Assembly: GCF_029962835.1 (NCBI RefSeq)
Contig: NC_080582.1
Coordinates: 71,978,177-72,042,176, forward strand
Source: Magnolia sinica
Taxonomy: Eukaryota > Streptophyta > Magnoliopsida > Magnoliales > Magnoliaceae
Length of the DNA: 64,000 nucleotides
Reading direction: 5' to 3'
A program made the translations under genes and the position numbers. Within the stretch, counting starts at the first letter, position 1, and the number at the start of each line of letters is the position of its first letter. Under the pieces are notes generated by a model, which worked only from the letters and a program-made list of their open reading frames with translations, was not told where the DNA came from and searched no databases. Of this stretch, positions 6,110 through 53,345 are shown piece after piece.

Positions 6110-9100
6110 TCAATTTTCATTCTCCATAGCTTTTTATCAATTCTTGTCTTTAATTCTGCCTTCCATAATAACTCCATCATTATTTCTCGTGCACACTCCG
6201 TTTTCCATTTACGCCCTCGCCAAGCCTAGAAAAATTGTATAGAATTTGAACTTCTCTATGTGAACCACATTCGTAAGCATGTCAGCCGAATTCATGGTTA
6301 CGTGAATCTTTTTAGAGTCATGCCTCATTTCTTAAGCAACTGTCGGATAAAATGATGAGACACATCAATATGTTCAGTATATGAGTAATAAACATAATTC
6401 TTAGCCAAATTAGCGTGCTTCCGCTGTCACAATTGACTAGCATGACCTCCAACTGAAGCTCCAACTGATTTATTTTTCCTCTTAACCAAACATCTTCCTT
6501 GAATGCTTCAGTCACTGCCATATACTCAAATTCGGTCGTGGAAAGAGCTACCACAGACTGAAGCTTCGACATCTAACTAATCGCTCCACCCACTAGCATG
6601 AACGAGTAACTGAAATTCGACCTTCTATTATCTACACTACCCATGTAATTTGAATCCACATAGCCTACTAACTTATTCCCTGATTTTTCAAACGATAAGA
6701 TGTAGTCCTACATACCTCGAATATATCGAAGTAGCCATCTCGCTAGCTCCCAGTGTTGCTTGACGGGGTTAGATGTGTAACTGCCAATAACACCCACCGC
6801 ATGTGAAATATTTGGTTCTATACAGACCATGACATATATCAAGCTGTTAACTGTGCTCGAATAAGATACACAAGACATAACCTACTTTTCTTCATCTATT
6901 TCATAATATTGTTCAGAAGAAAGCTTAAAATGAGCTGTGTGGGGAACGTTGACTTTCTTTGCCTTATCCATCCTATACTTCATTAATATCTTCTCAAGGT
7001 ATTCTACTTGAGATAACCATATTCTGCTCCTCTTCCTGTCTCTGTGTATGTCAATACTAATAACCCTCCTCAAATCTTTTATAGTGAATGTCCCTAATAC
7101 CTGAGCCTTCAGTATATCGATCTCAGTTATGCTATGACTGACAATAAGCATGTCATTAACATACAATACCAAGCTTTTTGTAAAAAAATTCTCATCACCC
7201 AATGTCTTGTAATAGACATAATTATCATATTACTCCTGGTAAACTTCTGACTCACCATGAAATAATCAATTTTTTTACACTAATGCCTAGGAGACTTTTT
7301 GAGGCTGTACAACGACTTCTTCAACATGCGAACCTTGTTCTCTTCCCCTTGTATTTCAAAATCTTTTGGTTGCTACATGTAAATATGCTCTTCCAATTTT
7401 TCATGGATGGTAATTTTCACATCTATTTGTTCTAGCTTGAGATTGTATTGGGCAAACAACACTAATACGAATCTGATAGATATTTGCTTCACCACAGACG
7501 CAAATATCTCAATGAAGTTAATACATTCTCTCTGATTATATCTCTTCGCTACTAACCTTTCTTTGTACCTATCATGTTTCTTCTCAAAGATCCACTTGCA
7601 CCTGATTATTTTTGGTCGACGGGAAGCTCCACCAGCTCCCATGTCTCATTCTTACACAGGGAGTCCATTTCATTACGCATTGTTGCTTTCCACTTTTCGA
7701 TATCTAAATCGTCAAGAGCCTCCTAAAAAGTTGATGGTACCACTCATCCATAATAAGGGCAAATGCAACATTCGAGCCATCCCTGTATCTCATTGATAAC
7801 CTACGATCCCTTGGGGATTCTTTCTCACAAGTGGCTGCTCCACTTGCTCCTATACCTCTATCTGCGTTTCTATATCAGCCCGTGTTTTATCTCTGTATAT
7901 CTAAATGTCCATAATTGACTTTTCCACTTCCTTATGCTCATCATTACGAAACAAGGATCCCTCGTCAAATTTGACGTCATAACTAAGGATGATTTTCCGT
8001 ATGACCTGGTCATATAGCATATACGTCTTCACACCATTATCATAGCTGATAAAGATGTACTTTTTAATCATTTAGTCTAGTTTATCTCTTTCAACTGATG
8101 GTACATGAGAGTAAACATCGTAACTAAATTCTCGCAGCCTGAGTAGTCTATCTGCTGATTACTCCACACTTCTTTTGAAATTTTACAATCAATAGTCGTA
8201 AAAATGGACTGATTCACTAAGTAACAAGCCGTGTTAACGACCTTAGTTCACATTTCCTTGCCCAACCCAACATTATTAATCATGCATCGAGCCTTTTCTA
8301 AGAGAGTCTAATTCATCCGCTCAGTCACACCGTTCTACTTTAGTGTATGGCGCATTGTGTTGTACCTCATGATCTCTTCATCCTTACAATACCGATTGAA
8401 TTCTCCAAAAGTGAACTCCCCACCATTATCTATCATTAACACTTTCACTTTTTGTCATGACTATTTTTCACCATTGCCTTCAACTGTTTTAAGTTGGTAA
8501 AACTTCAAATTTATTTTTCATAAAACAAACCCACGCTTTTCTGGAATAGTCGTCAATGAACATGACAAAGCATGACGACCCTGCATAAGAAACCATGGGT
8601 GATGGCTCCCATACATCATAATGCACATAATCTAGACCCCCATTATAAACATGTTTTACATTTTTAAAAGACAACCTCGACCGTTTACCATATATACAGT
8701 GCTTGCATATACTAAAATCAATACTTTTAAAATCTAGAATCAAATGACGATCAGAAAGTACCTTCATGCCTCACTCGCTCATGTGGCTCAGGTGTGCATG
8801 CCACATATATGTAGACGTGAAATTCGCTATAGACGTTGCAACTCCATAAGATGAAGTACTCCTAATCAACCTGTAAAGATTTTCATTTTCCACGCCTTTA
8901 TGAATATAAGTGCCCCCTTTAAAACTTTAAGGACACGATCAAACTTGGTGAATTTGCACTATAATGTCTCGAGTGTACCCAGAGATATCAAGCTCTTCCT
9001 CAACCCAGGAACGTGTCTTATTTTGGTCAAGACATGCTCCATGCCATCAAACATCTTAATGCGCATCGATCCAACACCAACCATGTTATAGGCAATGTCA

Positions 9101-9582
9101 TTACCCATAGATACTTGACCACCATTGCACTCATTGTAACTAGTGAACTAACTCTTATAATGGGTCATGTAGTACGAAGCCCCCATATCTAAAATTCATG
9201 TGGTACGAAGCCCCCATATCCAAAATCCATTCTCCGTCAAAGTACCCAGCCTTTGATGGAATCATCACGTCACTATCATTCGTCTCCTTAATGGATTCTG
9301 CAATCTTGGCCCTCCTTAAAAAAACTCTCTGAATTTTCCTTACTCGACTTAGGATTCTTACAATCCTTCTTTATGCTCCCGATCATGTCATAATTCCAGC
9401 ACTTCAACTTTCCTTTGCCCTTGCTCTTAGATTTGGACCTTGATCATGAAGATCTACTATCTCACTCAGAATTTCTCCCCCTCGTAACCAGTGTATCTAT
9501 GAAAGTACTCATATCACCATTTTTCTTTCTCATCGCCTTCGACTGAAAGGTTGAGATAACAGTCTCAACACTAATGGTCGTG
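6110..9582 (-). pseudogene. Copia-A pol region (zinc knuckle, protease, integrase, RT, RNase H), decayed
   Basis: Reading leftwards on the minus strand, the order is the copia order. A gag C-terminus has a damaged zinc knuckle (CWNYDMIGSIKKDC, second Cys and His lost) near 9400. The protease has WILDMGASYYMTH near 9220. Integrase remnants (YVHYDVWEP, MFIDDYSRKAWV) lie at 8489-8767. RT pieces (CKWIFEKK..RYKERLVAK) lie at 7373-7642. A degenerate active site YVNDML, in place of YVDDML, lies in 6882-7202. RNase H ([20 protein letters not shown]) lies at 6318-6572. Stops and frameshifts separate the blocks, so no functional polyprotein is possible. Gag upstream is continuous across the 12-kb solo-LTR insertion at 9583. 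Confidence 0.85.
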
Positions 9583-11940: not shown

Positions 11941-11975
11941 GGGCCTGTTTGGTTTTCTCGAATAACAGTATTCGG
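11941..11975 (+). repeat. Left terminal inverted repeat of the Harbinger element
   Basis: Begins GGGCCTGTTTGGTTTTC and continues to AACAGTATTCGG. It differs from the right end at 4 of 35 positions. Confidence 0.9.
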
Positions 11976-12179
11976 CCTGCAATGGGCAATTATGACTTTT
12001 CACATGTGTTTGATTTTTAATGGTATTCAAAAGTAAATTAAAGAACGCTGTAGTTGGTGGGAAACGACAGTAGATCAGATGCCATATCCTGCTAAAATGC
12101 AGGTGCTTGAATGTAATCGTCTGACGACCGTCTGTCAGACTGAAATGGGTATGGTGGTCCGCGGGACACCGTACCATTT

Positions 12180-12299
12180 AAACCGTTCATAATACAAAAC
12201 ACACATATGCACTTCGGTATTTCATTTCCGCACAGAAAACATCTCTCTTCCCTCCATTTGCAGCAAGAGCGGATTGATAGATGGCGACCCACATGCAAG
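12180..12299 (+). promoter_or_regulatory. Putative leader exon of the Harbinger element
   Basis: A pyrimidine-rich stretch (ctctcttccctcc) is followed by ATGGCGACCCACATGCAAG and then a consensus 5' splice site (gtaaga, from 12300). This looks like the first transcribed exon of the element, placed about 240 bp inside the left end. Which downstream gene it feeds cannot be told from sequence. Confidence 0.35.
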
Positions 12300-12300
12300 G

Positions 12301-14950
12301 TAAGATCGGGGCCTTCCGAGTTCCCTTTGCATGGATCTTTCCTGGATGTCGTCCATACTAACTATTCTTCTCTCTCTCGTTTTCAGTCTGGGGAGATTAG
12401 ATCTTACTGGAACCCTATCAACTGTCTTCATGACTGCGTTGGGTGACTGAAACAGAGTGCAGAGGTAATGCTCTGATTGCTGTTATCTTCTGCGGATTTC
12501 CAGTGGTTTTTTCCTTTTTTAGTTTTTTTAGACAAACCTTCTGTTTACTGACAACTGTGTTGTCACTGTTGAGGGGTTTACTTTGAGTATGTTGGAATTT
12601 GCTAGCGTGGAGCTGCAAATGAGGGTTCAGCAACATGTGCATGGAAGAGGATAGCAGTGCGGGCCCCTGGAAAGAAGTTTCTATAAAGAAAAATACCTTT
12701 TTACAACTGTTTGGATATCCCGCATTTGGTGGATGTGACAGAATGGGGTGGTCCGATCTGCTGTCTTCATCCCGTCCGGTTTTGCAGTGCATGGACTATT
12801 TTTTTTGGATTTGAAAATGAACGGGTCCCACTCCATAACATGTTTCCCACTGTTTTGTTGAATTTTTGGGATATCCCACATGTGTACTCTCTGTCTACCT
12901 TCTTTCTTACATTATCTTCTTCACAGTAATCTAAATTCTCACTTTACCTTCTGCATAATCGAGGTTGAATGGCTTTTTGGGCAGACGCATCTAAACAGCG
13001 GAGCATGTTCTGAAGAACGGCTTGCCTCTCATACATCTGGGCTGCATTGCCACATGGGTTGGCCTCTAGATGGGCTGGCATACATGCATGTGTTAATTAT
13101 TCTAATAAATTGAAAGAGTTAGGCTGTATATGGGTTGGCCTGAAGGTAGTTGTTTGACAGAGTTCATTTGAAAAATATATAATAGGAAAATCAGTTCCTT
13201 CTGGCTGTGTTTCAGTTGTTACTGAGGCTTGCTGATGGTTGGTGTATAAACTTTTACACTACTTTCAGCTTGCAAAGCAGAGCCAGGTTGGAGATCTATA
13301 TATTGTGTGGATGGTTGACACTTGACATTGATGATGGGAGATATATCCAGGGGTTGAAGGTGTGTGACATTCTACCATTGACATGAAATCCCAAAACTTT
13401 TCAATCGCCTGGATAGCAGTTTGGTCATTGCTTATACAATGGAATGTTGGAAATACGTGAGAGATTTCCAATCGTTCCTTCATTTGTTATGATGAGCTGG
13501 CATAAAAATCAGGCTACCTAACTCACTGGGAGTTTATTGATTTATGTGTAGGTAATGAAAAATTCCAAATAGGCACATTCATTGCACTTCTGTGCAACCA
13601 CATCATCTGATCGGTCTGATTTTTTAACCAGGTCATTTATACAGTGGGGCCCAGCAAATGAAAACTCTAAAACATAAGTTGGACATCTCACTTTTTATTT
13701 TTCTATTTTGGTATCCATCTTCTTTTTCAACTGTTCAATCTGGGAGGATCTTCAGCTTTAAACTGGCATGCATGCACACTATTAGTCTTCAGCTCATCTG
13801 ATTAGTTTGCCTTTCATTGCATATTTATGAGAATCAGTCGTCTATGGCTCATGCCTTTTGGAGCTTGTATACAGTTTTCTGGCTACTTCTTTTCTTATAG
13901 GCTTGGTGGTGCTATCAAAAGGTAGCATGATCTGTTATTATAGAGATAGTTTTGTTCCCAGCTTCCATTTTAAAAATTCTTTGGTCATTGTATATAGGCA
14001 GGGACTCTCTTCCAAATAATCTTGGCATACACGTCCGTGATTGAGGTATGTGTGATTTTATTGTTTATTAAAGACTATTTATCTTTTATATCAACTTATT
14101 CATTTCTGATAACTGCTTTCTATCAGTGGAATTGAAAATCTAATCATCACAAGGGCTGAAATGTTATTCCACTTGTAATATTATATACATGCATTAGGTC
14201 TTGTGAATGTTGGTGGTGATTTCTCTACCAAAGTGGTTTGAAGAATAGCACAATGTTTTTGTACTCTAACAGCTTTAAAAATTAATAATTCGATAGTTAA
14301 AGAGACTCATGTTGATTTCAATAATGTGGGAATCTACTTGCTCAATATATGTTATATCCACATCGTCTCATATGAATTTTTAGTATCATATTCATATTAC
14401 TTTACAGATAATGAATAGAATATTTTTTCTTCGGAAGTATTTATGTTTATCTATTGTGATTGTATGATCAGAAAAAAGGTTCACCATTGGCCAGTCCCGT
14501 TGTACGAGTGGTGATAATGCAGTAACTGCAGGCCAAGATGAGCGGTACACATGACTAAAATGGTGCATGTGTAATGCTCGTATGTAAATTTCAATTTCTG
14601 GTTTGAGTATCCCAATCATGTTAAAAGTGAATTGTGAACTGACAGTGCGGTATTACATGATGATGTTGTCGCAGTTCATAGACGATATTTTAATCTTTAT
14701 TTTTTTGTGTAGTGTGTTCATGTTTGTCTATTGTGAATTATCATCAGTAATGACCAGGGCATACTCCATATTGTCTTGTTTTAATAATTTGAGTTTGTTG
14801 GCACAACTGCTAGTATGAGAGAGATTTTGACTAAATGCTCTGTAGGTTGCGTTGTCCTTTTATGAACGTTATGGGACATGTTTTTTTAATACCAATGCGT
14901 TGTTATATCTGAACAAACAGAGTTACAAATGGAACCAGTGCGGTATTACA
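12301..14950. other. Left non-coding part of the Harbinger element
   Basis: No coding exon with recognisable motifs was found in these 2.6 kb. The composition (T-rich, with many possible splice sites) is consistent with a long 5' intron and promoter for the transposase. Confidence 0.4.
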
Positions 14951-15008
14951 CCTACTAGTGGATGCTGACTCAATTTTATACATTTGTTGTACAAGTGCAT
15001 GTAATAAT

Positions 15009-16405
15009 ATGGAAGGACATGGATGGATGGAAGAGGAGTTGGTTGCCTTTGCAGCTTCAGTTGCAGTGGCAACTACAGTGATTGTGATTGGAGAATTTTA
15101 CAATAGTCTCTTTCTTAAGATACCCTGGAGAGTTGGTGACTATGAAAGAAGCAAGATAATTAATGGGATAATTAGAGCCGGAGATAATGAGTGCATGGCA
15201 CAACTTCGAATGAAAAAGGATATTTTCTTTCATCTATGCTCGTTCTCAAGGATAGGAATCTGCTACCGGATGGAAAACATGTAACTATGGAGGAACAACT
15301 TGTCATGTTCCTCCATACAGTAGGACATAATGTGCGAAATCGTGTCATTGGGCATCGCTTTATATGGTCTGGACAAACCGTACGCTAATATTTTTCTAAA
15401 GCATTGGATGCAATTGTGGGACTATATCCTAAGTTTGTAAAACTCCCCAGTGCAGAAATACCCATGAAGATTTCATCCAATCCCAATTGGAGGACGTATT
15501 TTCAGGTATGGATCATGCTAATCACTGCTATTCAAGAACATTATTGTTATAAGATTATGTCACCTACTATTTTTTTCCTGATAAACCACTTTTAAATTAG
15601 GATTGTATTGGTACAATTGATGGAACTCATGCACCCGCTTATGTTCCTACGATGGACAGTATCACCTATCGTAACCGAAAAGGGTTTCTCTCGCAGAACG
15701 TAATGGCCGCTTGTACGTTTGATATGAAGTTCGTATATGTGCTGGCCAGATGGGAAGGTTCGGCCTCCGACGCATGCGTGTTACAGAGTGCATTGACACA
15801 TTCACATGATTATTTTACAATCCCAGAGGGTATTTAACCATGGAATAGAAGTTATTTTTTAAATGAATGAATGTTAAGTTACATATTGATAATTACTCGT
15901 AATTAATTGTAAGTAAGTACTACGTAGTTGATGCTGGTTATGCACATTCTCTAGGATTCATGGCCCCGTACCGAGGCGTACGGTACCACCTCAATGAATA
16001 CCACGCGGGTCGCAAGCCTTGCAACAAAAAAAAATTATTCAACTACAGATATGCTCAACTATGAAATGTTGTAGAGCGGATTTTAGAGTACTGAAAGCTC
16101 AGTTTCCAATCCTCAAGTCAGCTCCATCATATAACCTTTTAACACAACTGAAGATAGTTATCGCATGTTGTGTTTTACACAACTTTATCCGAGGATTTGG
16201 GAGAGATGGTATTGATGCGAATGAAGACTCCTCAACGGTTGTAGCGGATGGTATAAACCCATCTCCAGTTGAAATAGGTTCTCAAGAAGATGGCCAGATG
16301 GTTACAAATGCCACTCAACGTGAGAGAGATGAACGGAACAAGTTTCGAGACAATATTGCAACTAGGATGTGGAATGATTACCATCCTGTACGTCGGAGTT
16401 TATGA
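15009..16405 (+). pseudogene. PIF/Harbinger DDE transposase, inactivated
   Basis: Three exons are inferred: 15009-15505, 15601-15829 and 15914-16405, with GT-AG borders and conserved phase. The first begins MEGHGWMEEELVAF; an upstream in-frame ATG is at 14958. DDE motifs are visible: first D in DCIGTIDGTHAPAYVP (from 15601), second D in WEGSASDACVL, third E in NVVER just after NYRYAQL. The tail has VLHNFIR and NATQRERDERNKFRD. Damage: a frameshift near 15235, a TAA near 15386 where the family has an Arg-Arg-Tyr-Phe stretch, a TGA near 16059 (looks like CGA to TGA), and a one-base loss near 16080 just past the catalytic Glu. This is the nuclease of the transposon; here it cannot be made intact. 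Confidence 0.85.
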
Positions 16406-16661
16406 AAATGTCTCCTTTTTTTTATATAAGGGATATATGTCCTCGTTTTCCGTCACTCAATTATCTATAGTATACATTTCCCTGTTGTTTTAACAAAACA
16501 CCATTTTTCTACTCCATGTCAACTAATATTAAGAAATATGAATGTGTTAGCCTGTATGTTGCAAAATATTATTCAATTGTGCATGACAATCTGAGATTTT
16601 TCTGCTTATTTTAAAATTCTCATTTCAATCTATGTAAATATCCGAAGATTCGGACGGAGAT

Positions 16662-17816
16662 ATGTCACCTAACAAGAGTAGCCAACAATCAACGCCTATA
16701 AAACCATCCAGTCAGGAGCCACGTGTTACACCAAGGAGGACCCCGAGGAAAATTAAACAGAAATCAATTGTTGAAAATGTGTCTTCTAATGGTGTAATGC
16801 GATGGACTGATGAGATAGACGACTGTCTTATTGACACTCTTATGGAAGTTGTCGCAAATGGTCGTAAGAGTGCCAACAGGTTTAAGAAGGAGACATATAA
16901 GACGGTTGTCGATACTGTGAAGGGTGCCGTAGGGATATCGCTATAGGAGAAACATGTTGGGAATCGCCTTTGTACGCTGAAGAGGTTGTATTTTCAAGTG
17001 CACGAGACTTTAAGTGCTTCTGGTTTTGGATGGGATGAAGATTTGAAGGTAGTCACTGCTCCAGATGACGTATGGAAAGATTACATACGGGTGAGAATGG
17101 CAAAATATCCAAGTCTTAATATATTTAGTGTTGTTGTTTTTATTTATATTATCTAACATTGTATTGACACATTATATTGTCAATAGTCCCATCCATATGC
17201 ACAACATGTACAGGGCAAAGCAGTGCGGAGGTATGACGACTTGACCGTCCTGTTTGGGAATGATCGTGCTAGTGGACGTCGTTCAAGTACAGGCAACATT
17301 CCAGATTCTATGGCTTCTAAACGGTCTATGGATACTGATATTTCTCCGAGAACGTCTGTTGATTTGAATGACGATACGCTTGTGCTATCGAGTGACGATG
17401 TAGGAGACACTACGGGTGACATCCATTGGTCATATCATAGTCGTGACGGCGGCCACAGGGCCCACCGAAGTTCGGATGGAAACGAGAACAGTTCTGTGAA
17501 CACCGGCAGCACTTTGACGTTAAGGAAGAGAGCAAAACCAAGTCGTCCTTATGTAATTGGGCAAGGAATGAGTGAGGTTGCCGAAGCAGTGAAGTCACTG
17601 GCTATAACCATTTACCAAGGAAAGGACATGGTACGCATGTCGCAGATTCTTCTCGCCTTGGAGCAGATTGAAGGGCTGACAGAACATGAGATCCTTCGTG
17701 CTACAATGATTCTATCGAAAGATGAGCAACAGTCTGCCTCATTCCTTTCACTCCCCGAACACAGGAGGTTGGACTTTGTATTGATGCTACTTGCACCGGA
17801 CCAGTCCTTCGACTGA
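16662..17816 (+). pseudogene. Harbinger ORF1: Myb/SANT-like DNA-binding protein, one premature stop
   Basis: Exon 1 is 16662-17090 and exon 2 is 17187-17816 (ATACGG/gtgaga donor, caatag acceptor, phase 0). The N-terminus is basic and Ser/Pro-rich. The Myb_DNA-bind_3-type domain follows, with MRWTDEIDDCLIDTL, then EKHVGNRL, FGWDEDLKVVTA, VWKDYI, SHPYA and YDDLTVLFGND, as in plant proteins annotated L10-interacting MYB domain proteins. A Ser/Asp-rich linker and a helical C-terminus (LALEQIEGLTEHEIL, HRRLDFVLML) complete it. The frame is open except for one TAG at 16944-16946, which may be a CAG to TAG change. ORF1 proteins of this superfamily bind the element ends and help transposition. Confidence 0.8.
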
Positions 17817-18336
17817 GCACAGTCGGACGTATATAGACTTTGATATTTTGGATGGATGTTTTTTTTAGACATTTTCTGTTAGGACAAATTATTATTTTTT
17901 TGTAATTGTTGGTGACAATATGTGGATGAATGTGCTTGTTTAGAACAGGCAGTGGATATGGATATGCCTATATAGAACAGTATCTGTTGGTTGTGCTTGC
18001 TACTACATGATTGGCAGTGTTGGACAACCTGTCAACTGTATGATATTTTCACGACTGTTTACATTTTTTGAACTTGCAGACTATAGTTTGTTTGGACGTT
18101 TTTCTTATACACTGCATCACATGTTTTTATTTTTGGTTTACTCTGTCAGTGATCTTCATAAGGCCGGTTCAGGTGTGTGAGATGAAATACTTCAATACCT
18201 TGTAATATAATGATTGTTACAATAATATTTTACGTTATTTCTTCCGGTTTCTGAACAAGTAATGATATTAGAAATTGATCAACTATTTTTTGGTATATTC
18301 CACTCAGATATTGTTATATTATTTGACAATGTGCAG

Positions 18337-18762
18337 ATGGCAAAAAAGGCTTATGTTGTCTTCAACGGCCGACGCCCTGGAATATATTATGACTGGGAGG
18401 AGTGTCGGGTGCAAGTGGAGGGATTTTCACAGGCACGTTTCTGTGGATACAACTCTGCAATAAAGGTATTTCTTGAATGGTTTGAATGGTCTGAGAAAAT
18501 GGGGCTTCCAGCTGTCCCATGGGATGAGATTGTCAATGACCATGAGAGTGTTAGGTCGCAGCTTAGAGAGAACCGCAGTGCCATCTGCCTGAGTCGTACG
18601 TATGGACGGACCTCGGCAATGACCTCTTGTGCCCCATATGAATTTGGCACAAACAGACAAGGAGGTGCCCCAGACGTTGGAGACTGTGGGGCACTGCTAA
18701 GATTCATCTTTGGAATCTTGGTAATGGTTACTGTCATTCAGCTTATATCAAAGCTGAAGTAG
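18337..18762 (+). CDS. RNase H1-type hybrid-binding (viroplasmin-like) domain protein with C-terminal membrane helix
   Basis: The 141-residue frame is intact. The ATG at 18337 directly follows a possible 3' splice site (tgtgcag), and the frame is also open upstream to 18262. Residues 1-50 match the small RNase H1 N-terminal / caulimovirus viroplasmin fold: AYVVFNGRRPGIYYDWEE then CRVQVEGF, followed by a short WFEW helix. This fold binds RNA:DNA hybrids or dsRNA in RNase H1; no RNase H catalytic domain follows. A polar Ser/Arg linker leads to a C-terminal hydrophobic helix (LLRFIFGILVMVTVIQLI) with a basic end, suggesting a tail anchor. It lies about 0.5 kb downstream of ORF1, in the same orientation and inside the inverted repeats, so it is cargo or a third gene of the transposon. 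A captured host gene is the main alternative. Its function is unknown. Confidence 0.7.
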   Translation: MAKKAYVVFNGRRPGIYYDWEECRVQVEGFSQARFCGYNSAIKVFLEWFEWSEKMGLPAVPWDEIVNDHESVRSQLRENRSAICLSRTYGRTSAMTSCAPYEFGTNRQGGAPDVGDCGALLRFIFGILVMVTVIQLISKLK

Positions 18763-19552
18763 TGATATATAGTTTTGTTTGTATGGACATTAGTGGGGAT
18801 GTTTTGGACAACTTTCTGTTTACCTTTTTTGATGGACAGTATTATGGATGTTGATAATCGTTGTTTGGGTTGGAATTTTTTGTTCATATAGTTTTGGATT
18901 TCAGTATATGTTTACAACCCATCTGTTTGTTTTGTTCCAATAGATAATATTGCAGAGTAATCAGGTACCCCTATGCTATTTTCAAAGCAGCAGTGATATT
19001 TTTGGCCAGTGGAGCCCACAGTTGAACGGGGTGGATAAAACAACTATAGGAAGTGGGGACCACAAATGAACTGCTTGAATACGACAACTTCAAATAGTTG
19101 TGCCTTATAACACCGTCAGAAACTGGGGCCCGAAGATGAACGGCGTGGATGAATGAAAACGCTGTGCTATAGACGCACTGACGCACAACGTTATAGAAAC
19201 ATGTGCAAAAAGTGGAGCTCATATACTAAGACAGGGAGGAACATGTACCAAAGGTGGGGCCCACAACAAATTAACCAGAGACCGTCAGTCCACTCTTCTG
19301 TATCAGACATGCAATGGAAACAAACAAAATCAAACAGCCAATGCAGTGAAATCCGAAAATGAGGTGATGGACACCATAACACTGCAGTCGGTGTGATGCA
19401 CGTAATACACTTATAAACCAAACACGAGATTGCTGATTTGGTATAAGGTCCACCTAGAAGATTGTAGAAAACAAACATGTGACTGTAGTCAACTGTAATA
19501 TCAGCAATCATTAGAAATACAAATAAAATACCAATCATTACTTACTTTACTT
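18763..19552. other. Right subterminal region of the Harbinger element
   Basis: From about 19005 the sequence carries several spaced copies of a GTGGGGCCCACAA..GAACGG-like word (near 19010, 19050, 19120, 19255). These could be subterminal binding sites for ORF1 or transposase; this is inference. No gene is seen. Confidence 0.45.
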
Positions 19553-19587
19553 CCAAATACTGTTATTCAGGAAAACCAAATAGGCCC
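19553..19587 (-). repeat. Right terminal inverted repeat of the Harbinger element
   Basis: Read on the minus strand it starts GGGCCTATTTGGTTTTCC and continues to AACAGTATTTGG. TTA follows at 19588-19590 as the target duplication. Confidence 0.9.
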
Positions 19588-19601: not shown

Positions 19602-20130
19602 AGGCCGATTCCAATTATCGAGGCCGATTGTCAAGGACGATTCCGATTGTCAAGGCCGATTTCGATTGTCGAGGCCGATTCCAATTATCAAGGCCGATTC
19701 TGATTGTCGAGGTCGATTCGATTGTTGAGGCTGAGATTGATTATCGAGGTCGATTCTGATTGTCGAGGCCGAGTCCGATTGTCGAGGATGATTCCGATTA
19801 TCGAGGCCGATTGTCGAGGCCGATTCCGATTGTCGTAGCCAGTTGTTGAGGCCAATTTCGATTTTGATTGTCGAGGCCGATTTTGATTCCGATTGTCAAG
19901 GCCGATTCCGATTGTCGAGGCCGATTCCGATTCCGATTCCGATTGCTAAGGCCGATTTTGATTGTCGAGGTCGATTCCTATTCCGATTGTTGAGGCCAAT
20001 TATCGAGGCCGATTCTGATTGTTAAGGCCAATTGTCAAGGTTGATTCCGATTTCGATTGAGGCCGATTCCGATTGTCAAGGCTGATTATTAGTGCCGATT
20101 ATCAATACCGATTATGAGTATGTGACAGCA
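19602..20130. repeat. GCCGATTCCGATTGTCGAG minisatellite in LTR copy A
   Basis: Roughly 20-bp units built from GGCCGATT, CCGATT and GTCGAG words repeat irregularly for about 0.5 kb. The inverted counterpart in copy B is 52960-53345. Confidence 0.9.
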
Positions 20131-32560: not shown

Positions 32561-33981
32561 CTACGAAGATTTTCCCACTGGCGAAATAAAACTCCTGAAC
32601 CGATCCAGGATGTCAGGATCAAGTCTCTTAAGCTCTTCCTCAGTGAGCCATGTGCTATTTGAAGCTGGGCGTGACTTCCATTTAACCAGGTACTTATGAA
32701 ACCCGCCTTCCGACGTGGATATTATCTGATGGTCCAAAATATCCTCTATTTCCTCTCTAGGTGTGGGAAGGGTAGGTATATGAGGTAAAGACTGAGAAAA
32801 TGGGCCGGGAAGGGTAGGCATGGAACGTAGTAGCTGGGAAGATGGGTCAGGATAAGTAGGTATGAGAGGTAGAGACTGGGAAAATGGATCGGGACAGGTA
32901 GGTATGGGAGGTAGAGGTTGGAAAAATGGGTCCGGAGGGTAGGTATGGGACGTAGTAGCTGGAAAGATGGGTCAGGACGGATAGGTATGGGAGGTAGAGG
33001 CTGGGAAAATGAGTCGGGAGGGGCCATGGATCAAATGAAAGGTCTGATGAATCAGGATGGTTAGGCGAAAAGCTAGACAATGCATCAATGGCCCCTTGAA
33101 ATGCAACTAGATCCTCCACATTGAATGTAGAACTAATTCCCATGGAGGGTGAAAGATTTGCCACATATACATTGAGACCGTTTCGTTTTATAATTTTGAC
33201 GGGTCCAGCGTTACGCGCGTGTAACTTACGAACGGCCCCCGGAGGATACCGCTCGAGCCTGGTGTGGACCATCATAGAGTCCCTTTCATTGAATTCTTTC
33301 AAACATTTATGCTTGTCTGCAGAAAATTTGTAATGTTCATTACTAGTAGTGGTCTTCTGCTTGATTTCTTGATGCCATGAATGAATGTGATGCACAAAAA
33401 ACTCTGCAAGCTCTGACGGCCTATGGGGGCAGTGACATAGGGATAAGATCAATAGGTTTCTCAGGTTTATAACCAGTAATGACTTCATAAGGACTGAGAC
33501 CTGTGGACCTATCGATAGAACTATTAAACGCAAACTCGACTATAGGTATTACGGTGTCCCATGTTCTGGTGTGTTCTATATCCTTCCTAAGGGGAGACTC
33601 ATCCGGTAGATCATCAAGAAAGACATCATGAAACTCATCCACTACCGGAATAGCCTCAGTAAGTAACTCTACACTAGCCTCTGGTGCACTCTCTCTAGCC
33701 ACGAGGCCGCACATGTTGTACCCCTCAAAATAATGGTCTTGATGTCCCTCATGGGGTGGGGGTACGGGTGCACGCCCATGACTGATTCCTTGGCCACCTC
33801 CATTCATTGGTCTATCCTCCTGGCCACCTGCCTGAGATTGGTCATCTTCTCTAATGGTAGGGTTTGTCCTGAGGGAGGCCTCTATTTGGTCAAGGCGTTG
33901 ATCTATGTCTTGTTCTAAGCGCTTACCCCAAGACTCGATCTGCTGGGACAGCTTGTTTAGTGACTCTAGCAGTTGTTCCAT
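32561..33981 (-). pseudogene. Chromovirus polyprotein remnant: gag start, RT edge, integrase end, chromodomain
   Basis: The minus-strand frame starts at 33981 (MEQLLESLNKLSQQIES, a coiled gag start). It passes into VVDEFHDVFLDDLPDESP, the N-terminal edge of gypsy RT, and within a few codons into PIVEFAFNSSIDRSTGLSPYE, the end of the integrase core. Most of gag, protease, RT, RNase H and integrase is therefore missing. After a frameshift the integrase C-terminus continues (FSADKHKCLKEF, GDSMMVH-like wording, YPPGAVRKLHARNAGPVKII). A proline-rich repeat follows, then a chromodomain (EIEDILDHQ, FHKYLVKWKSRP, STWLTEEEL, 32561-32760). Chromodomains of such elements guide integration to particular chromatin. 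Confidence 0.85.
32760..33020 (-). repeat. About 42-bp coding minisatellite before the chromodomain
   Basis: About six units of roughly 42 bp (14 codons) encode alternating PIPT.PDPFSQPLPP- and SFQLLRPIPT-like segments. The unit is visible on the plus strand as repeated taggtatgggaggtagag / taggtatgggacgtagtagc. Confidence 0.8.
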
Positions 33982-40600: not shown

Positions 40601-43600
40601 TCATATTGAGTACATTGACCTATTTATTGCAATTCAATTTGATGATGCATACAAACACAGCATTAGGAAATTTTATATCCAAGTTATTCTCTCATCTTCC
40701 AGAAGATTTCAATATTATGTAACACTTCCATTACAGATCTTGTCAAATCCTTTGTCTCTGCCCGACAATTACTTACTAGCTAGATACCTCTTTCAATGTC
40801 AGGTTCGGACTCTGCACAAGCTCTACAATGTCCAAAAAGCCGCAATGCAAGAAATAAGGAAATTGATTTGTAGTCCTGCTCAACTGTCAGCATCCAATTC
40901 CAACACCAATGAAGCCTGTGATGATCAGATTCATAGTTCTGTGGTGGAAGGGAAACCTTTAGGGGCAGCTTATGTTTGCAGTCAAGATTACATGGAAGAA
41001 TCAAATGTTCCTTCCACGTATCCTATTCATGCGGCTGTGGAGTCTTCAGGTAGCAATCCCCAAAAACAATTCTCAATCGATAACATGGAAGCGAAGCTTC
41101 CACCAAATGTTTGCAATACAATGAAGAGAGGTATTGATCTGGAAAGGCCACCGGAAGAATATATGGATGAATCTGATTACCAGACAGAGTCAAACAACTT
41201 TGACATACAAGGTGCTAATGCCAGTTCATATTCATTCATGGGATGCAATCGATCGGTTCTCCAAACGGGTTCCTATGGAGCACCTTCAAAATCAAGCCAG
41301 GAGACTTGTCGAGATTTGGGAAGTAAGATTTGTACAGATTATACGAAGTGCATCATAGGCATTCAGAGTCTGCAAGATGCTTTCCGGCGCAACATATTGC
41401 AGGACTTCTCATGGAATCATCTACCTGCTGTAGGAAACTGCTCCATCAGTGGGGAATCAAACTTTTCACTCAACCAGCATGAAAGAAAGCCATTGTGGTT
41501 GCTTCAGGTTTTATCTTCTTCATAAACATTTCAACATGCAAGCATGTTAGTTAGGACATTGTGGGGACAACATATTATATTTTGTTCATTTATCTATTTG
41601 GCGAATGAATTGAATACAGCCAGTGTTCAAAGCATCAGTATCCTTGCACATGTCAATGATGATTGGGGATATGGAAACTTGTTCCAATATCACCGGTACT
41701 TGGAAAATATCGCTAGTTGAGAGAAACATTGGGAAAATGGTGGAATTTTTCAGTAGAACTTCAGGAGATGTTAAGGGAGCGTTTGGACCGTAAGTTACTT
41801 TAGATAAGCTACTTATGCCATAAGTAGTTGATCTTGGTTTTTACTTGATCAATACATAAGTATGTTTGGTAAACAACGTACTTATCATCCAAAAAGTAGA
41901 AAAGCATATTTTGTTTCCAACATCATAAATGATTATCCCCAAAGTCTGTTTGGTCCCCCTCACACCCACCGTCCATCTTGTGGGGCCAACCTTTTATGTG
42001 GATTGTTCATTGTGTGGGCCCCAACTTTGATGTGGGCCGTCCATCTTGTAGGGACCACCTTGGTTGTGGGCCATTCGTCATTAGGGGCTGACCTTTAATG
42101 TGCACGGGTCATTAAATAGGGCCCATCTTTGATGGTAGTCATCCATCAAGTGAGGCCGATCTTCAATATACACTGCCCATCATGTGGAGCCCACCTTTGA
42201 TGCGGACCGTCCATCATGTGGGCCCACCTCTGATGTGGGTCATCCATCGTGCGGGACCCACTTGGGATATGTGCTACTCATCATTAGGCCAACCTTTGAT
42301 ATGAATTGTCCATCATGTGGGGTCCACCTTGATGTGGATCATCCATCATGTGGGGCCCACCATTTTAATTGCCTATCATGTGGAGCCCACCTTGTGGGTT
42401 GCCGTTCATGTGGGCCCTGCCCTCAATGTGGGTTACCCATCATGCGGAGCTCACCTTGGATGTGAGATTTTCATCATTAGGGGTAGACCTTTGATCTGGA
42501 TCATCCATCATGTTGGACCACCTCGATATGGGCCATCATCATGTGGGGCCCACTAGATCATCTACCCATTCATTGGATGACTTTCCAATCTCATGAACTT
42601 AGAAAGGGTTCATGGTCACAAAGAGCATATTCCCTTAAATAATTTCCCATGTTACTGTGTCACCAATGAAAATGAAGGAAATAAGTTACTTTTGGAAGTT
42701 GAGAAGCAATTTAAAATTAATAATAATAACTTATAAAAATAAGTTACTTTTTGTAAAAAGTTATTTAAGTTTAATAACCAAACTAACTTATTTAAGAAAA
42801 GTAACTTATTAACTTGCGTAAGTTAAAAAACCTACTTATTTGGTAGTATCCAAATGGGCTCTAAGAGACATGTTTACACATTTAGGAATCAAAATATTGC
42901 CAAAAATAACTATTACATAATAATTTTCTATTTATAGGGGCCTAAATTATGTACTGTCAGAAAAAGCAGTGCAATTATATCCAAGATGAATTTATATCAT
43001 TCAAATACCCTACAATGACATGATAAAACATCCATTCTCAATTTGAGGGATAAAAATGGAGGAAATTAAGATTTCCCCACATTTTCCTTGTTTACCCACT
43101 CAAATGTTGATTTATTCACCACAAATCAATGTCAATGCATGAGAATCATGCATAAACATTGCTATATATGCTAACATTTGAAATAAAAAAATAGTTTCTA
43201 TGGACTAGGCCCATCTCCACTTGAGTCGAGATTTCTATCAGCAAATATAGTCACTAATATCAAAATTTTCAATGATATTTGGAATTTTCTATATAACTTG
43301 GGGTTTTCGTATCAATGACCTGCCAATTCTGATAATATCGGTAATATTATTGACAATATCACCGATGTTTGGAATATTGAATACAACAATTTTTAAGTGA
43401 TACTCTTTTCACTCTCGATAGTTAGATTGGATAGGGAGAAAGATTCCACTTTTGATCCTGTTGCTGACCCCAATGACCCGGATCGACTAGTAGCAGTGGA
43501 AAAACCTATTGATTCAGTTGAATTGGGTGCAGAGGCATAAGCAAAGCTATCTAGGGTAGAGCCCTAGCTTGGATCCATATATAGAGGCCTGAGTCACCCA

Positions 43601-46378
43601 GCATTTTAGCCAGCGAATCTGCAACTTACTAATTAAAAGATTGTTATATTAATATTTTTAAAAGTAAATATCCATTTGATTCCCATCAATTTATTTTTTT
43701 AAAAAAAGAAATTAATGAAAATGTTGATACATAAGATAAACACAGAGAAAGAAGAGAATCGGTTGTCCCCTTGTATATGATACCTCTACTGCAAAGAAAC
43801 CTGCTTTACCAACACCACTTGTAGTTCCACAATTACTCTTTAAGAAAAATTATACAGGTCCCCTTGTTAAGAATGTTGCATAACAAACATCTATGTGATT
43901 AAGATTGTATAGATGATTGTAACCTTCGTTATGACGCTAATGACCCTTAAGTCTTAAATTGATGTCATGAATCTTAGGTAGGATTCATTTGTGACCTTTG
44001 CTAAGGACGTTACATAACAAACATCTACGTGAAACCTTCATTATGACTCTAATGACCCTTAAATCTTAAATTTAGGTCGTTTGTCTTAGGTAGGATTCAT
44101 CTGTTACCAGTCCATTGCTTGTGGGTGTTTGATTGGACTGCTACTCTATATTATCATGATTCATCCTCATTTTGAGGGAAAGAAATTATGCTTACCTTTC
44201 AACTTGCTAATGAAATACTTTTGAGAAAGACGAAGGCTACATTTGCCGGTAGGTTTGAATCATACTGGGGGGCACACATGCCAGCATAGCACACGTGTGG
44301 GTGATCGGGCCATTCATCAGGCAGCAACACTGTTTATATGACCTGGCCCAAAACTCGTGCCTGTTGATTCATCAGTTGCACAATTGTACTAGTACAGTGG
44401 ATGTAGTCCATTGGTCAATTCTCTTCCTATCTGGGGCCCACCTGATGGGTGGACTGGCTTTATCTTTCGGCTAGGGCATGTACATGAATGGCCTGTCTGA
44501 TGAATGGTTTGGTTCTCTCACACGTATGCTACAATTGACATGTGCCCATGAGTGGCATTCAAATCCTAATATGAGTAAGCGTTAGTAGTCCTGTTTCAAT
44601 CAGAAGTCAAAGTTCTACGGAAGCAATTAAATTTGTCTTCTGGGTATGTTTATTGTGTTCTGCAACCATTTCCCTTTTCAATGAAAATCTTTTATCGTGG
44701 AATCAGAAAGAGGAGCTCTGAGATGTGCCTGTAACACATCTGGTGAACATGGCTGCAAAATCAACATGATGATGCATAAATAGAGACCATCAGGCTACAT
44801 TTTTTTATTTGTGGTTTCTGATCGGAACATGAATTAGCATTGACATGGGAAAAATCACATGGAAGGTTTATCAACTACTTATCAGTGAAGATTCCTTTTA
44901 TAAACCATGTATTCTGTATGACATGATTTTGTCATTCGTTGAAAATCCACATGGTATTGTACTTAGCATAAGTCAATTTTATCATGCATTAATATGAATT
45001 GTTACTTTGATTATCCCTTATCATCTTCTCCCAGTTATTTAGACTATATGAAGTCGAAACTGATATCAGTTGTTAGGAAACCGGCCCCAATTAATTGGGG
45101 TAAAGGTTTAGATGATGATGATATCAGTTGTTAGGAGGAATGCTAATCGCTTGTCTTTGATTGGTTCAGATAGGTGGTGGAACCCATGCATCCGATTAGG
45201 TGTCACTTCTTTTACTCGGTTGCATGTGCGGGCATTTTTTTCCAAGCATGGATGTGGGATTAGCATTTTTCCACTTGATAAAATCATCAAATTGTCTGTT
45301 TCCATCATTCAATGAGCTTTCTGTGCTTTCAATTATTGATGTGAGATTTGCGTCTGTGTTGTTCTTCTCGCAGCAATCAACGCCTATCACTGCCGAAAGG
45401 CTGAGCTCTGGCTGCAAATCAGATTCACCTGAATCTGAAGAACTGCATCCCGAGAGAAAAACTCATGAGCAAGTCAAAGCCAGCAATCTGTCCCCGAAGA
45501 ATGCCTACATTCCAGGTTCAATCGATCTACGTCAGCCTCTCGAAAGTATTAGCAATGGCAAGGTACCTCATTCGGTATTGGACGAACAACTGCAACGAGA
45601 TTCTGCCGCATGCCTTCCATGTAGTGAACCCTTGCTTCCTTCAAATCCTGTCATGTATCCTCAAGTGGGGTCCACCCATACATCCATGCTGTCTCATTTA
45701 AAAGGTCCCAATGTTACCTGTATCCAAGGGTCAGGAGATCGTAACTCATTGTCATGTGTTTTAAGCTGTCAAACAGGCGAAAACGACGGGACTGAAATCC
45801 CGAATTGCTCCGGTCATGGAAACAACAGTCCTGCATCCCAAGGCAGAAAGGCTTGCAGGGACAGAGATCTCAGCATTGTTGCTGTCAAAAGTGATCAATG
45901 TGGTTCGGATAGCGGGCCAGTCAAGGTGGACCATGTCGAAGCAGGAGTACAATCAGAGCCTAAAGAAGCACCCCAATTTACTAACGATGACTTCAAACCA
46001 TCTCTTTCGCCTTCTGTTCAAGTTGGAACTTTAACAGACTGCCAAAGAGAGGGCGAAGAACCTGCCATGACTAAAGAAAGTGAGGAGGAACTTGAAAATG
46101 GTTCTACTGTCGAAGAAGCATGTGAGAGCATTGCAGCAAAGATACTGCTAAGTTTTGCACCGTGCAGATCGCAGTGCGATGCAAAGTGGCAGTGCTTTGA
46201 GACTCAGATAGAGATGGAGTCAAGCCAATCTAGTAGAGAGTGCACAGGCCGCAGCAACAAACAGAACCGACGTGTGAGAAGGGGCCTGAATTACAGCAAT
46301 GGGGTTGGTGTGGATGCTGTAAAATGGATGAAATCTGTACGTGGAAGGAGGCGGAGGACATCGAGAAGGCAACGGTAA
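37611..46378 (+). CDS. Uncharacterised plant protein with DUF863-like N-terminal motif, three coding exons
   Basis: Exons 37611-37796, 40803-41507 and 45374-46378 join in phase 0 with GT-AG borders and give 631 residues. The chosen start is the first ATG (MKDMTAVSLPA); the frame stays open back to an acceptor at 37568, so an upstream coding exon is possible. Residues about 45-80 read STMLQHEELFKEQVRTLHKL then YNVQKAAMQEI, a helix of the kind that opens DUF863-type plant proteins. The middle is Ser/Asn-rich and low complexity. The C-terminal part has a conserved-looking helix (EACESIAAKILLSFAP) and a strongly basic tail (KWMKSVRGRRRRTSRRQR), a possible nuclear signal. No enzyme motif is seen and the function is unknown. 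Frame intactness and clean splice sites indicate a functional gene. Confidence 0.8.
39499..39590. repeat. 33-bp tandem repeat, nearly three units
   Basis: Units starting at 39499, 39532 and 39565 read agaagatacagctct.gcctta followed by aataaatacaa. A diverged further copy occurs near 39700. Confidence 0.9.
40389..40662. mobile_element. 274-bp Tourist-like MITE
   Basis: Ends GGCTCCATTTGGATGC and (inverted) TGCTGTGTTTGTATGC, with TTGCAATTCAA-type subterminal mirror sequence, are flanked by TTA at 40386-40388 and 40663-40665. It sits 140 bp from coding exon 2. Confidence 0.7.
41775..42861. mobile_element. 1.09-kb Harbinger-type non-autonomous element carrying a minisatellite
   Basis: Ends GGGAGCGTTTGGA and (inverted) GAGCCCATTTGGA are flanked by TAA (41772-41774 and 42862-42864). 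Subterminal arms mirror each other around AAGTTACTT / AAGTAACTT words. The related repeat at 47.9 kb has the uninterrupted site (gattgttaaaaaagacat). The centre is an array of GGGCCCACC units. Confidence 0.75.
41955..42565. repeat. About 40-bp CATCATGTGGGGCCCACCTTTGA-type minisatellite
   Basis: Around 15 degenerate units combine CCATCATGTGG, GGCCCACC and TTGATGTGG. The unit resembles the terminal wording of the palindromic MITEs elsewhere in the window, suggesting it grew from a captured MITE end. Confidence 0.85.
43868..44125. repeat. About 130-bp tandem duplication
   Basis: Two units share gttgcataacaaacatcta.gtg, then cattatgac.ctaatgaccctta and cttaggtaggattcat. The flanking DNA, 43386-45373, is otherwise an intron without recognised genes. 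Confidence 0.8.
44271..44546. mobile_element. 276-bp inverted-repeat MITE
   Basis: Ends GGCACACATGCC..AGCATAGCACACGTGTG and (inverted) GGCACATGTC..TAGCATACGTGTG mirror each other, with gccattcatcaggc / gcctgtctgatgaatgg as a second inner mirror. Confidence 0.6.
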
Positions 46379-52959: not shown

Positions 52960-53345
52960 CGACAATTGGCCTCGACAATTAAAATCGGCCTCGACAATTG
53001 AGATCGATCGATAATCAGAATCAGCAAATCGGTCACGATAATCGGATCGATTGATATCAAAATCGGCCAATCGGTCATGACAAATGGTATTGATCGATAA
53101 TCAGAGTCGGCAAATCGATCACGTCAATCGGAATCGACAATCAGCCACGACAATCGAGATCGATCGATAATCAGAATCGACAAATCGGTCACGTCAATCG
53201 GAATCGGCAATCGGCCAGGACAATCGGGATCGATCGATAATCAAAATCGGCAAATCGGTCACGACAATTGGATCAATCGATAATCAAAATCGACAAATAG
53301 GTCACGATAATTGGAATCAATAATCGGCCACGACAATCGAGATCA
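52960..53345. repeat. CGACAATCGG minisatellite in copy B
   Basis: Units of CGGTCACGACAATCGG and GATCGATCGATAATCAGAATCG alternate. This is the inverted counterpart of 19602-20130, but with a longer, more regular unit of about 55-60 bp. Confidence 0.9.

Follow-up and report, generated by a model that had tools for sequence, protein, structure and literature searches.

Results

A PIF/Harbinger element with three genes in one direction

The window analyzed here, a stretch of 64,000 nucleotides from the 1.84-Gb Magnolia sinica assembly (C10:71978177-72042176), contains a PIF/Harbinger element of 7647 nt (window positions 11941-19587) that is bounded by a 35-nt inverted repeat. Its left terminal inverted repeat (TIR; 11941-11975, + strand, flanked by TTT) and its right counterpart (19553-19587, - strand, flanked by TTA) are identical at 31 of 35 nt. 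Three genes lie between them, all on the + strand: a transposase gene (15021-16405), ORF1, which encodes a Myb/SANT-like DNA-binding protein (16662-17816), and a third gene, ORF3 (18337-18762). In the transposase gene, two candidate introns read from the sequence (15506-15600 and about 15830-15917) separate three exon blocks; the gene shows two in-frame stops (15386 and 16062) and two frameshifts (at about 15249 and about 16080-16092) when read against the frame of a related copy, L031, described below. DDE-type blocks (IDGTH, ASDAC and VVER) are readable in its translations, one piece of the broken gene gives a weak match to Pfam DDE_Tnp_4 (E 0.0037, below the cut-off), and in the L031 transposase we recognized what we take to be the D, D and E blocks. 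The two exons of ORF1 (16662-17090 and 17187-17816) flank a candidate intron (17091-17186), whose boundaries were likewise read from the sequence and for which a matching donor and acceptor occur in L029-L031. Its product matches Pfam Myb_DNA-bind_3 (PF12776; E 5.4e-05, 24.5 bits against a cut-off of 23.6), and the gene is broken in the window by an in-frame TAG at 16944-16946. At the C-terminus of ORF1 (17673-17795), Pfam MLLE_2 was matched below threshold (E 0.00018, 21.8 bits, cut-off 27).

A DDE transposase, a Myb/SANT ORF1 and TIRs with a 3-bp TTA/TAA duplication are thus all present, placing these elements in the PIF/Harbinger superfamily. The usual account of two genes only, which is a description of the superfamily and no requirement for membership, does not extend to this clade, where a third gene is found. 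That gene reads without a single stop through 141 codons. Residues 4-40 of its product match Pfam PF01693 (Cauli_VI, the RNase H1 N-terminal domain) at E 3.5e-13 and 50 bits, against a curated cut-off of 21, and all three PDB entries matched by sequence at E <= 10 (3bsu, 1qhk and 6vrd) are RNase H1. A variable linker follows this hybrid-binding domain and leads to a C-terminal hydrophobic helix (residues 119-137, Kyte-Doolittle value 2.42), after which four residues remain. The original prediction had pictured an intact 141-residue frame with an RNase H1 N-terminal/viroplasmin fold and a terminal hydrophobic helix, lying inside the inverted repeats in the orientation of ORF1 and a dead transposase, and all of these particulars held, including the profile match to Cauli_VI that was to be looked for.

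With transposase and ORF1 both broken, ORF3 is the sole open gene of the window element. However, transposase and ORF1 carry five lesions in some 2.3 kb, a rate that would predict about 0.9 in the 423 nt of ORF3, so that its openness in this copy is not significant and tells little about selection on the copy; the argument that ORF3 was kept intact here by selection while the remainder died was dropped for this reason. What lifts ORF3 above chance is its recurrence, position and conservation.

Elsewhere in the window, a tandem array of GATTCCGATTGTCGAGGCC-like units occupies 19602-20087, starting 15 nt past the right TIR, and a tandem array whose unit looks similar to GATTCCGATTGTCGAGGCC lies on the opposite strand at about 53 kb (52983-53344). 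Open frames of 392 and 261 codons (45200-46378 and 40740-41525) have no Pfam match at E <= 0.01, and a frame on the - strand (32850-33533) with a Tf2-1-like SH3 domain (E 1.8e-09) is probably a retrotransposon remnant.

Recurrence and gene order in the Magnolia genome

The M. sinica genome was searched with ORF3, scoring 150 of 1005 candidate places (34-100% identity among the matches listed), and with ORF1 exon 2, scoring 150 of 1219. The best 150 of the 1005 ORF3 candidates merge into at least 144 loci, of which 107 have an ORF1 match within 12 kb among the matches listed. In every one of these listed pairs ORF1 lies upstream of ORF3 on the same strand, and the gap between them is 334-752 nt in 102 of the 107 and 1.0-6.5 kb in the remaining five. 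Again among the matches listed, ORF3 was found downstream of 28 of 29 ORF1 matches with an identity of at least 70%, of 69 of 84 in the range 55-69% and of 10 of 37 under 55%, while ORF1 accompanied 29 of 33 ORF3 loci at 60% identity or more and 78 of 111 below that level, leaving without a listed partner 37 of the 144 ORF3 loci and 43 of the 150 ORF1 matches. This fall in pairing with divergence fits the use of best-150 lists, though lineage-specific loss of ORF3 would produce the same picture. Recurrence of ORF3 at the same place and in the same orientation beside ORF1, as anticipated for a regular component of the element, rules out a one-off capture.

A set of loci was fetched for closer comparison (L009-L031), all picked by an ORF3 match and hence unable to reveal elements that lack this gene. 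Twenty of them (L009-L028), with ORF3 64-87% identical to that of the window, make up group A together with the window as its 21st locus. Among the twenty, transposase was matched in 17 and ORF1 in 17 (counted on its exon 1), and the 16 loci containing both always show the order transposase, ORF1, ORF3. The incomplete loci comprise L010, with ORF3 alone, L011, without ORF1, L019, where transposase was not found, and L016, where neither transposase nor ORF1 exon 1 was found. L010 contains a 2134-nt derivative (7249-9382 of that locus) with TIRs, TTA/TTA flanks and ORF3, in which transposase and ORF1 were not matched. The other three loci, L029-L031, represent a distant young lineage, with a mutual identity of 97.4-97.7% over their longest shared blocks. 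Their identity to the window amounts to 45-91% in transposase exons, 43-47% in ORF1 and about 37% in ORF3, and all three have the same order of transposase, ORF1 and ORF3.

Mobility of elements with ORF3 inside is indicated by target-site flanks. TIRs with identical 3-bp flanks surround ORF3 at 10 of the 21 group A loci, the flank being TTA at L010, L015, L017, L024, L026 and L028 and TAA at L011, L014, L016 and L020, with several left-end candidates present at L014, L015, L016, L024 and L026, which agree at L014 and L016 and from which a matching one was taken at L015, L024 and L026. Both ends are present with unlike flanks at four of the 21 (the window, with TTT/TTA, and L018, L022 and L023), and a recognized end is lacking at seven. 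The left end of the window element also aligns in L010, L011, L014, L017, L020 and L028, among others. In the young lineage, L031 has TTA/TTA flanks over 7161 nt, those of L030 are mismatched, and in L029 no left end was identified. Matching TWA flanks at 10 of 21 group A loci and one of three young ones speak for movement with ORF3 inside. A second TIR-like sequence (TAA followed by a sequence like GGGCCTGTTTGGTTTTACCAGATAA) occurs inside L012, L014, L015, L016, L018, L022, L023 and L024. In L016 it lies at 6.87 kb, and in the other seven at about 3.46-3.65 kb; it may mark an old internal insertion common to a subclade.

Co-inheritance of ORF3 with transposase and ORF1

Genetic distances of the three genes are strongly correlated across the 17 complete loci (Mantel r 0.82 for transposase and ORF3, 0.87 for ORF1 and ORF3, and 0.77 for transposase and ORF1; permutation p 2e-4 for each pair). 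Trees built from ORF3 and from transposase plus ORF1 have 10 of 14 splits in common, against a mean of 0.2 and a maximum of 4 when labels are shuffled. The transposase plus ORF1 topology was not rejected on the ORF3 data by the SH test (p 0.072), and fell just outside the set by the AU test (p 0.029, with a replicate warning). Among the matches listed, identities of ORF1 and ORF3 to the window are also correlated in 87 linked pairs of near-full length (Spearman 0.64). ORF3 has thus been inherited along with transposase and ORF1 as lineages diverged to about 37% protein identity. The original prediction had left a choice between an unusual third transposon component and capture of a host gene by the element; for ORF3 in its present state, the first is favored by this co-inheritance, by the recurrence in place beside ORF1 and by the gene order common to group A and the young lineage.

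A few loci depart from this pattern. At C7:79670109, C8:32195753 and C17:58244366, ORF1 is 71% identical to that of the window and ORF3 39-43%, in contrast to C14:24771809, where the corresponding values are 73% and 70%. The discordance suggests exchange of ORF3, or a sudden fast change, at these three loci.

A conserved domain and terminal helix

Conservation of the protein was assessed in an alignment of 22 ORF3 sequences (the window, five others of group A, 13 from other lineages that were chosen for having no listed stop, and the three young copies), namely those of 37 copies examined that run for 120 codons or more before a stop, a set biased to intact copies. They have a common pattern, subject to changes, of MxKKxYVVFNGRRPGxYYxWEEC followed by ARFxGY; the middle, about 60 residues long, is variable and the C-terminal helix is kept. 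All 22 match Cauli_VI at E <= 0.01, with no match to any other Pfam family and none to the RNase H catalytic domain (PF00075). The residues W20 and F35 are invariant in all 22, and align with the Trp of TWNEC and the Phe of ARF in human RNase H1. A C-terminal hydrophobic segment (19-residue value above 1.6) is also present in every sequence, ending 2-7 residues from the terminus, and no second segment was detected in these proteins, the highest value elsewhere being 0.57. A single hydrophobic segment near the C-terminus is a feature of tail-anchored proteins, and all 22 display it. The domain and the C-terminal helix are therefore conserved across the family and the linker is not.

An AlphaFold2 model of ORF3 has low overall confidence (mean pLDDT 58, pTM 0.29). 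Its secondary structure follows the order of the hybrid-binding domain, pLDDT is below 50 at residues 61-113, and a helix at 117-140 reaches about 90. A Foldseek search of the PDB with this model gave no match at E <= 0.001; the best matches were 1qhk and 3bsu (TM score by target up to 0.72). Taken with the sequence matches, the model leads us to predict that the protein binds double-stranded RNA or RNA:DNA hybrids. From the position of its hydrophobic segment we infer a tail-anchored protein, whose domain would lie outside the membrane lumen.

Selection on ORF3

The proposed comparison of dN/dS among copies was carried out as pN/pS, using 21 ORF3 copies of group A and 17-18 of the transposase and ORF1 parts. 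The ratio for ORF3 (0.58, interval 0.45-0.74) is set beside 0.48-0.61 for the transposase parts and 0.39-0.54 for those of ORF1; the neutral baseline described below applies to the ORF3 ratios. Group B clades gave 0.52-0.61, and single pairs 0.44-0.95, the lowest-divergence pair having the value of 0.95. Within ORF3 the ratio is 0.40 for the domain, 0.84 for the linker and 0.48 for the helix. The other five frames of the same DNA gave 0.75, 0.86, 0.86, 0.64 and 0.83, two of them with intervals below 1 (+1, 0.59-0.98; reverse 1, 0.50-0.80, which shares its third positions with ORF3); both intervals overlap that of ORF3 itself.

A baseline was provided by 200 neutral simulations on the ORF3 tree, with a substitution spectrum taken from the differences between the window and L009 in non-coding element DNA (78 transitions against 21 transversions, and a CpG bias). 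Simulated neutral ratios average 0.69 for the whole gene and 0.70 for the domain, so that the baseline for ORF3 is not 1. Ratios as low as those observed arose in none of the 200 runs for the domain, in eight for the whole gene and in nine for the helix, and 186 of 200 runs lay at or below the value for the linker. Simulations with weaker bias gave 0 or 9 such runs of 200 for the whole gene, 0 or 1 for the domain, 0 or 7 for the helix and 123 or 179 for the linker. Constraint on the hybrid-binding domain is clear, then; the helix is probably constrained, both it and the whole gene being marginal against neutral simulation, and in the linker no constraint is visible. We read the ORF3 signal as selection seen through the neutral decay of dead copies.

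Expression clues and public records

Immediately upstream of ORF3 is a candidate 5'-UTR intron (18173-18336, + strand), with donor GGTTCAG/GTGTGT and an acceptor, TGTGCAG, that abuts the ATG. Among 37 copies examined, eight are without the ATG, and NAG abuts it in 24 of the 29 that keep it; donor-like GGTTCAG/GTATGT and close variants occur 127-174 nt upstream of ORF3 at 14 of the 21 group A loci, including the window. Because both the donor pattern and the NAG before the ATG recur, they suggest a short 5'-UTR intron and a separate ORF3 mRNA.

Of 616 candidates in a protein-database search with a profile (A1) of the family, 11 reached E <= 0.001, three of these from M. sinica; a search of the same database with the single ORF3 sequence gave no match. 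In the public records ORF3 frames stand alone (P0001 and P0003) and are once fused to ORF1, in an M. sinica model (P0004) whose join would be a GT inside ORF1. This donor GT is not conserved: none of the three young copies has it at the aligned position, and it is changed in some loci of group A. A conserved ORF1-ORF3 fusion was therefore dropped, and P0004 is treated as a model artefact or local variant. Another record, P0006, comes from a 716-bp ENA contig; this 124-residue protein also has the domain, together with a hydrophobic segment that stops 13 residues short of its C-terminus, and is possibly a relative in another organism. ORF1 has five matches in the protein database (three M. sinica, one Lactuca and one Senna), with PF01693 listed for none of them. 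Searches of viral-contig and genome-contig collections with ORF3, and of viral contigs with a transposase exon, gave no match, and profile A1 found one short domain match in viral contigs and three in genome contigs.

Discussion

The window element is a decayed copy of a large Magnolia PIF/Harbinger family with three genes in one direction. We regard it as a three-gene element that keeps, by selection, a hybrid-binding, membrane-anchored protein, and assign this reading, leaving aside any step in silencing, a probability of about 0.82. In the usual account PIF/Harbinger elements need two proteins, and a conserved third suggests that more than these is involved in their spread in some plants; moreover, the domain of this third protein points to RNA rather than DNA. 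As to the ultimate origin of ORF3, an ancient capture before the family spread is possible.

A scheme for its action can be outlined. ORF3 would be translated from an mRNA with a splice junction immediately ahead of the ATG, and its product would be anchored by the C-terminus in an intracellular membrane, either the endoplasmic reticulum or the nuclear envelope, with the nucleic-acid-binding domain facing the cytosol or nucleoplasm. Some membranes are sites at which plant small RNAs are made. Holding the element's double-stranded RNA or RNA:DNA hybrids there could blunt small-RNA silencing and so allow the element to spread. We offer this last step tentatively, as the likeliest mechanism, by analogy with the element-encoded anti-silencing VANC proteins (PMC5735166 and PMC10398659, as far as their available text goes). 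That a PIF/Harbinger clade should encode its own membrane-anchored suppressor of RNA silencing, binding double-stranded RNA or RNA:DNA hybrids, is conjectural and would be an accessory of a kind undescribed in the literature searched. It nonetheless makes ORF3 a concrete candidate for the means by which a DNA transposon could withstand silencing in plants.

The main alternative to a role in silencing is that ORF3 serves transposition itself, as a tether at the nuclear envelope or endoplasmic reticulum that places transposase or ORF1, or by handling a nucleic-acid intermediate. Its strict position and its co-inheritance with the other two genes would suit such a cofactor, although to our knowledge no RNA:DNA hybrid step occurs in cut-and-paste transposition. 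According to the accessible part of one report, the transposase of the zebrafish element Harbinger3_DR already depends on ORF1 to be placed in the nucleus, a precedent for this kind of assistance, yet Ping/Pong and Harbinger3_DR were mobilized with transposase and ORF1 (PMC2836001); on balance we consider a cofactor role rather doubtful. Less likely is a function like that of caulimovirus P6/viroplasmin in the re-translation of a polycistronic element mRNA. The Pfam domain in common and three closely spaced genes on one strand would accord with it, but the candidate splice site abutting the start codon of ORF3 speaks for a separate, spliced transcript, and a comparison by Pfam profile matched no family beyond PF01693; we judge this role improbable.

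A further alternative is that ORF3 is a host gene fragment, caught before the family spread and hitchhiking without function. In its favor, whole-gene pN/pS is no more than marginally below simulated neutrality and the linker looks neutral; ORF3-like frames are listed as genes in public annotation, and a fungal Helitron is reported, in the text available, with a captured PF01693 gene (PMC4289320). Such a passenger is hard to reconcile with the constraint on the domain, the ratio of which was reached by no neutral simulation, or with full-length open frames retaining both domain and helix in lineages about 37% identical, and we consider it very improbable. A single open 141-codon frame in a decayed element would be unremarkable alone; a chance frame or annotation artefact is nevertheless excluded for practical purposes by the strength of the Pfam match, the recurrence of domain and helix in all 22 aligned relatives, and the conserved position. 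It also emerges that public annotation lists such transposon genes as if they were ordinary proteins.

Relation to known systems

ORF3 resembles RNase H1 (human 3bsu and yeast 1qhk) over residues 5-45 or so, in sequence and predicted fold. It differs in having no match to the catalytic domain, in place of which there is a low-confidence linker and the C-terminal helix, and in the KK that follows ARF in the human enzyme, which has become RG or CG in 15 of the 22 ORF3 proteins. Caulimovirus P6/viroplasmin likewise contains PF01693 (Cauli_VI), a likeness drawn by Pfam family; ORF3, in contrast, is small, ends in a helix, has no other Pfam match and resides in a DNA transposon. A parallel in setting is capE of helpo1.3, also a PF01693 gene within a DNA transposon, though this is a captured gene in a fungal Helitron, for which the available part of the source mentions no membrane helix. 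VANC proteins, encoded by VANDAL elements, are another instance of an element-encoded protein beyond transposase and may be functional analogues of ORF3; the comparison is one of description, and they belong to another superfamily and are described, in the text at hand, as sequence-specific.

Ping, Pong, PIF and Harbinger3_DR are PIF/Harbinger elements with two genes. No third gene is described for the PIF/Harbinger superfamily in the literature searched, which covered few subscription journals, and the phrase "third open reading frame" in PMC3212995 concerns class I elements, judging from the part of that source available. The Magnolia element has in common with all four the DDE transposase, the Myb/SANT ORF1, the TIRs and the 3-bp TTA/TAA duplication, and is set apart from them by a conserved third gene downstream of ORF1.
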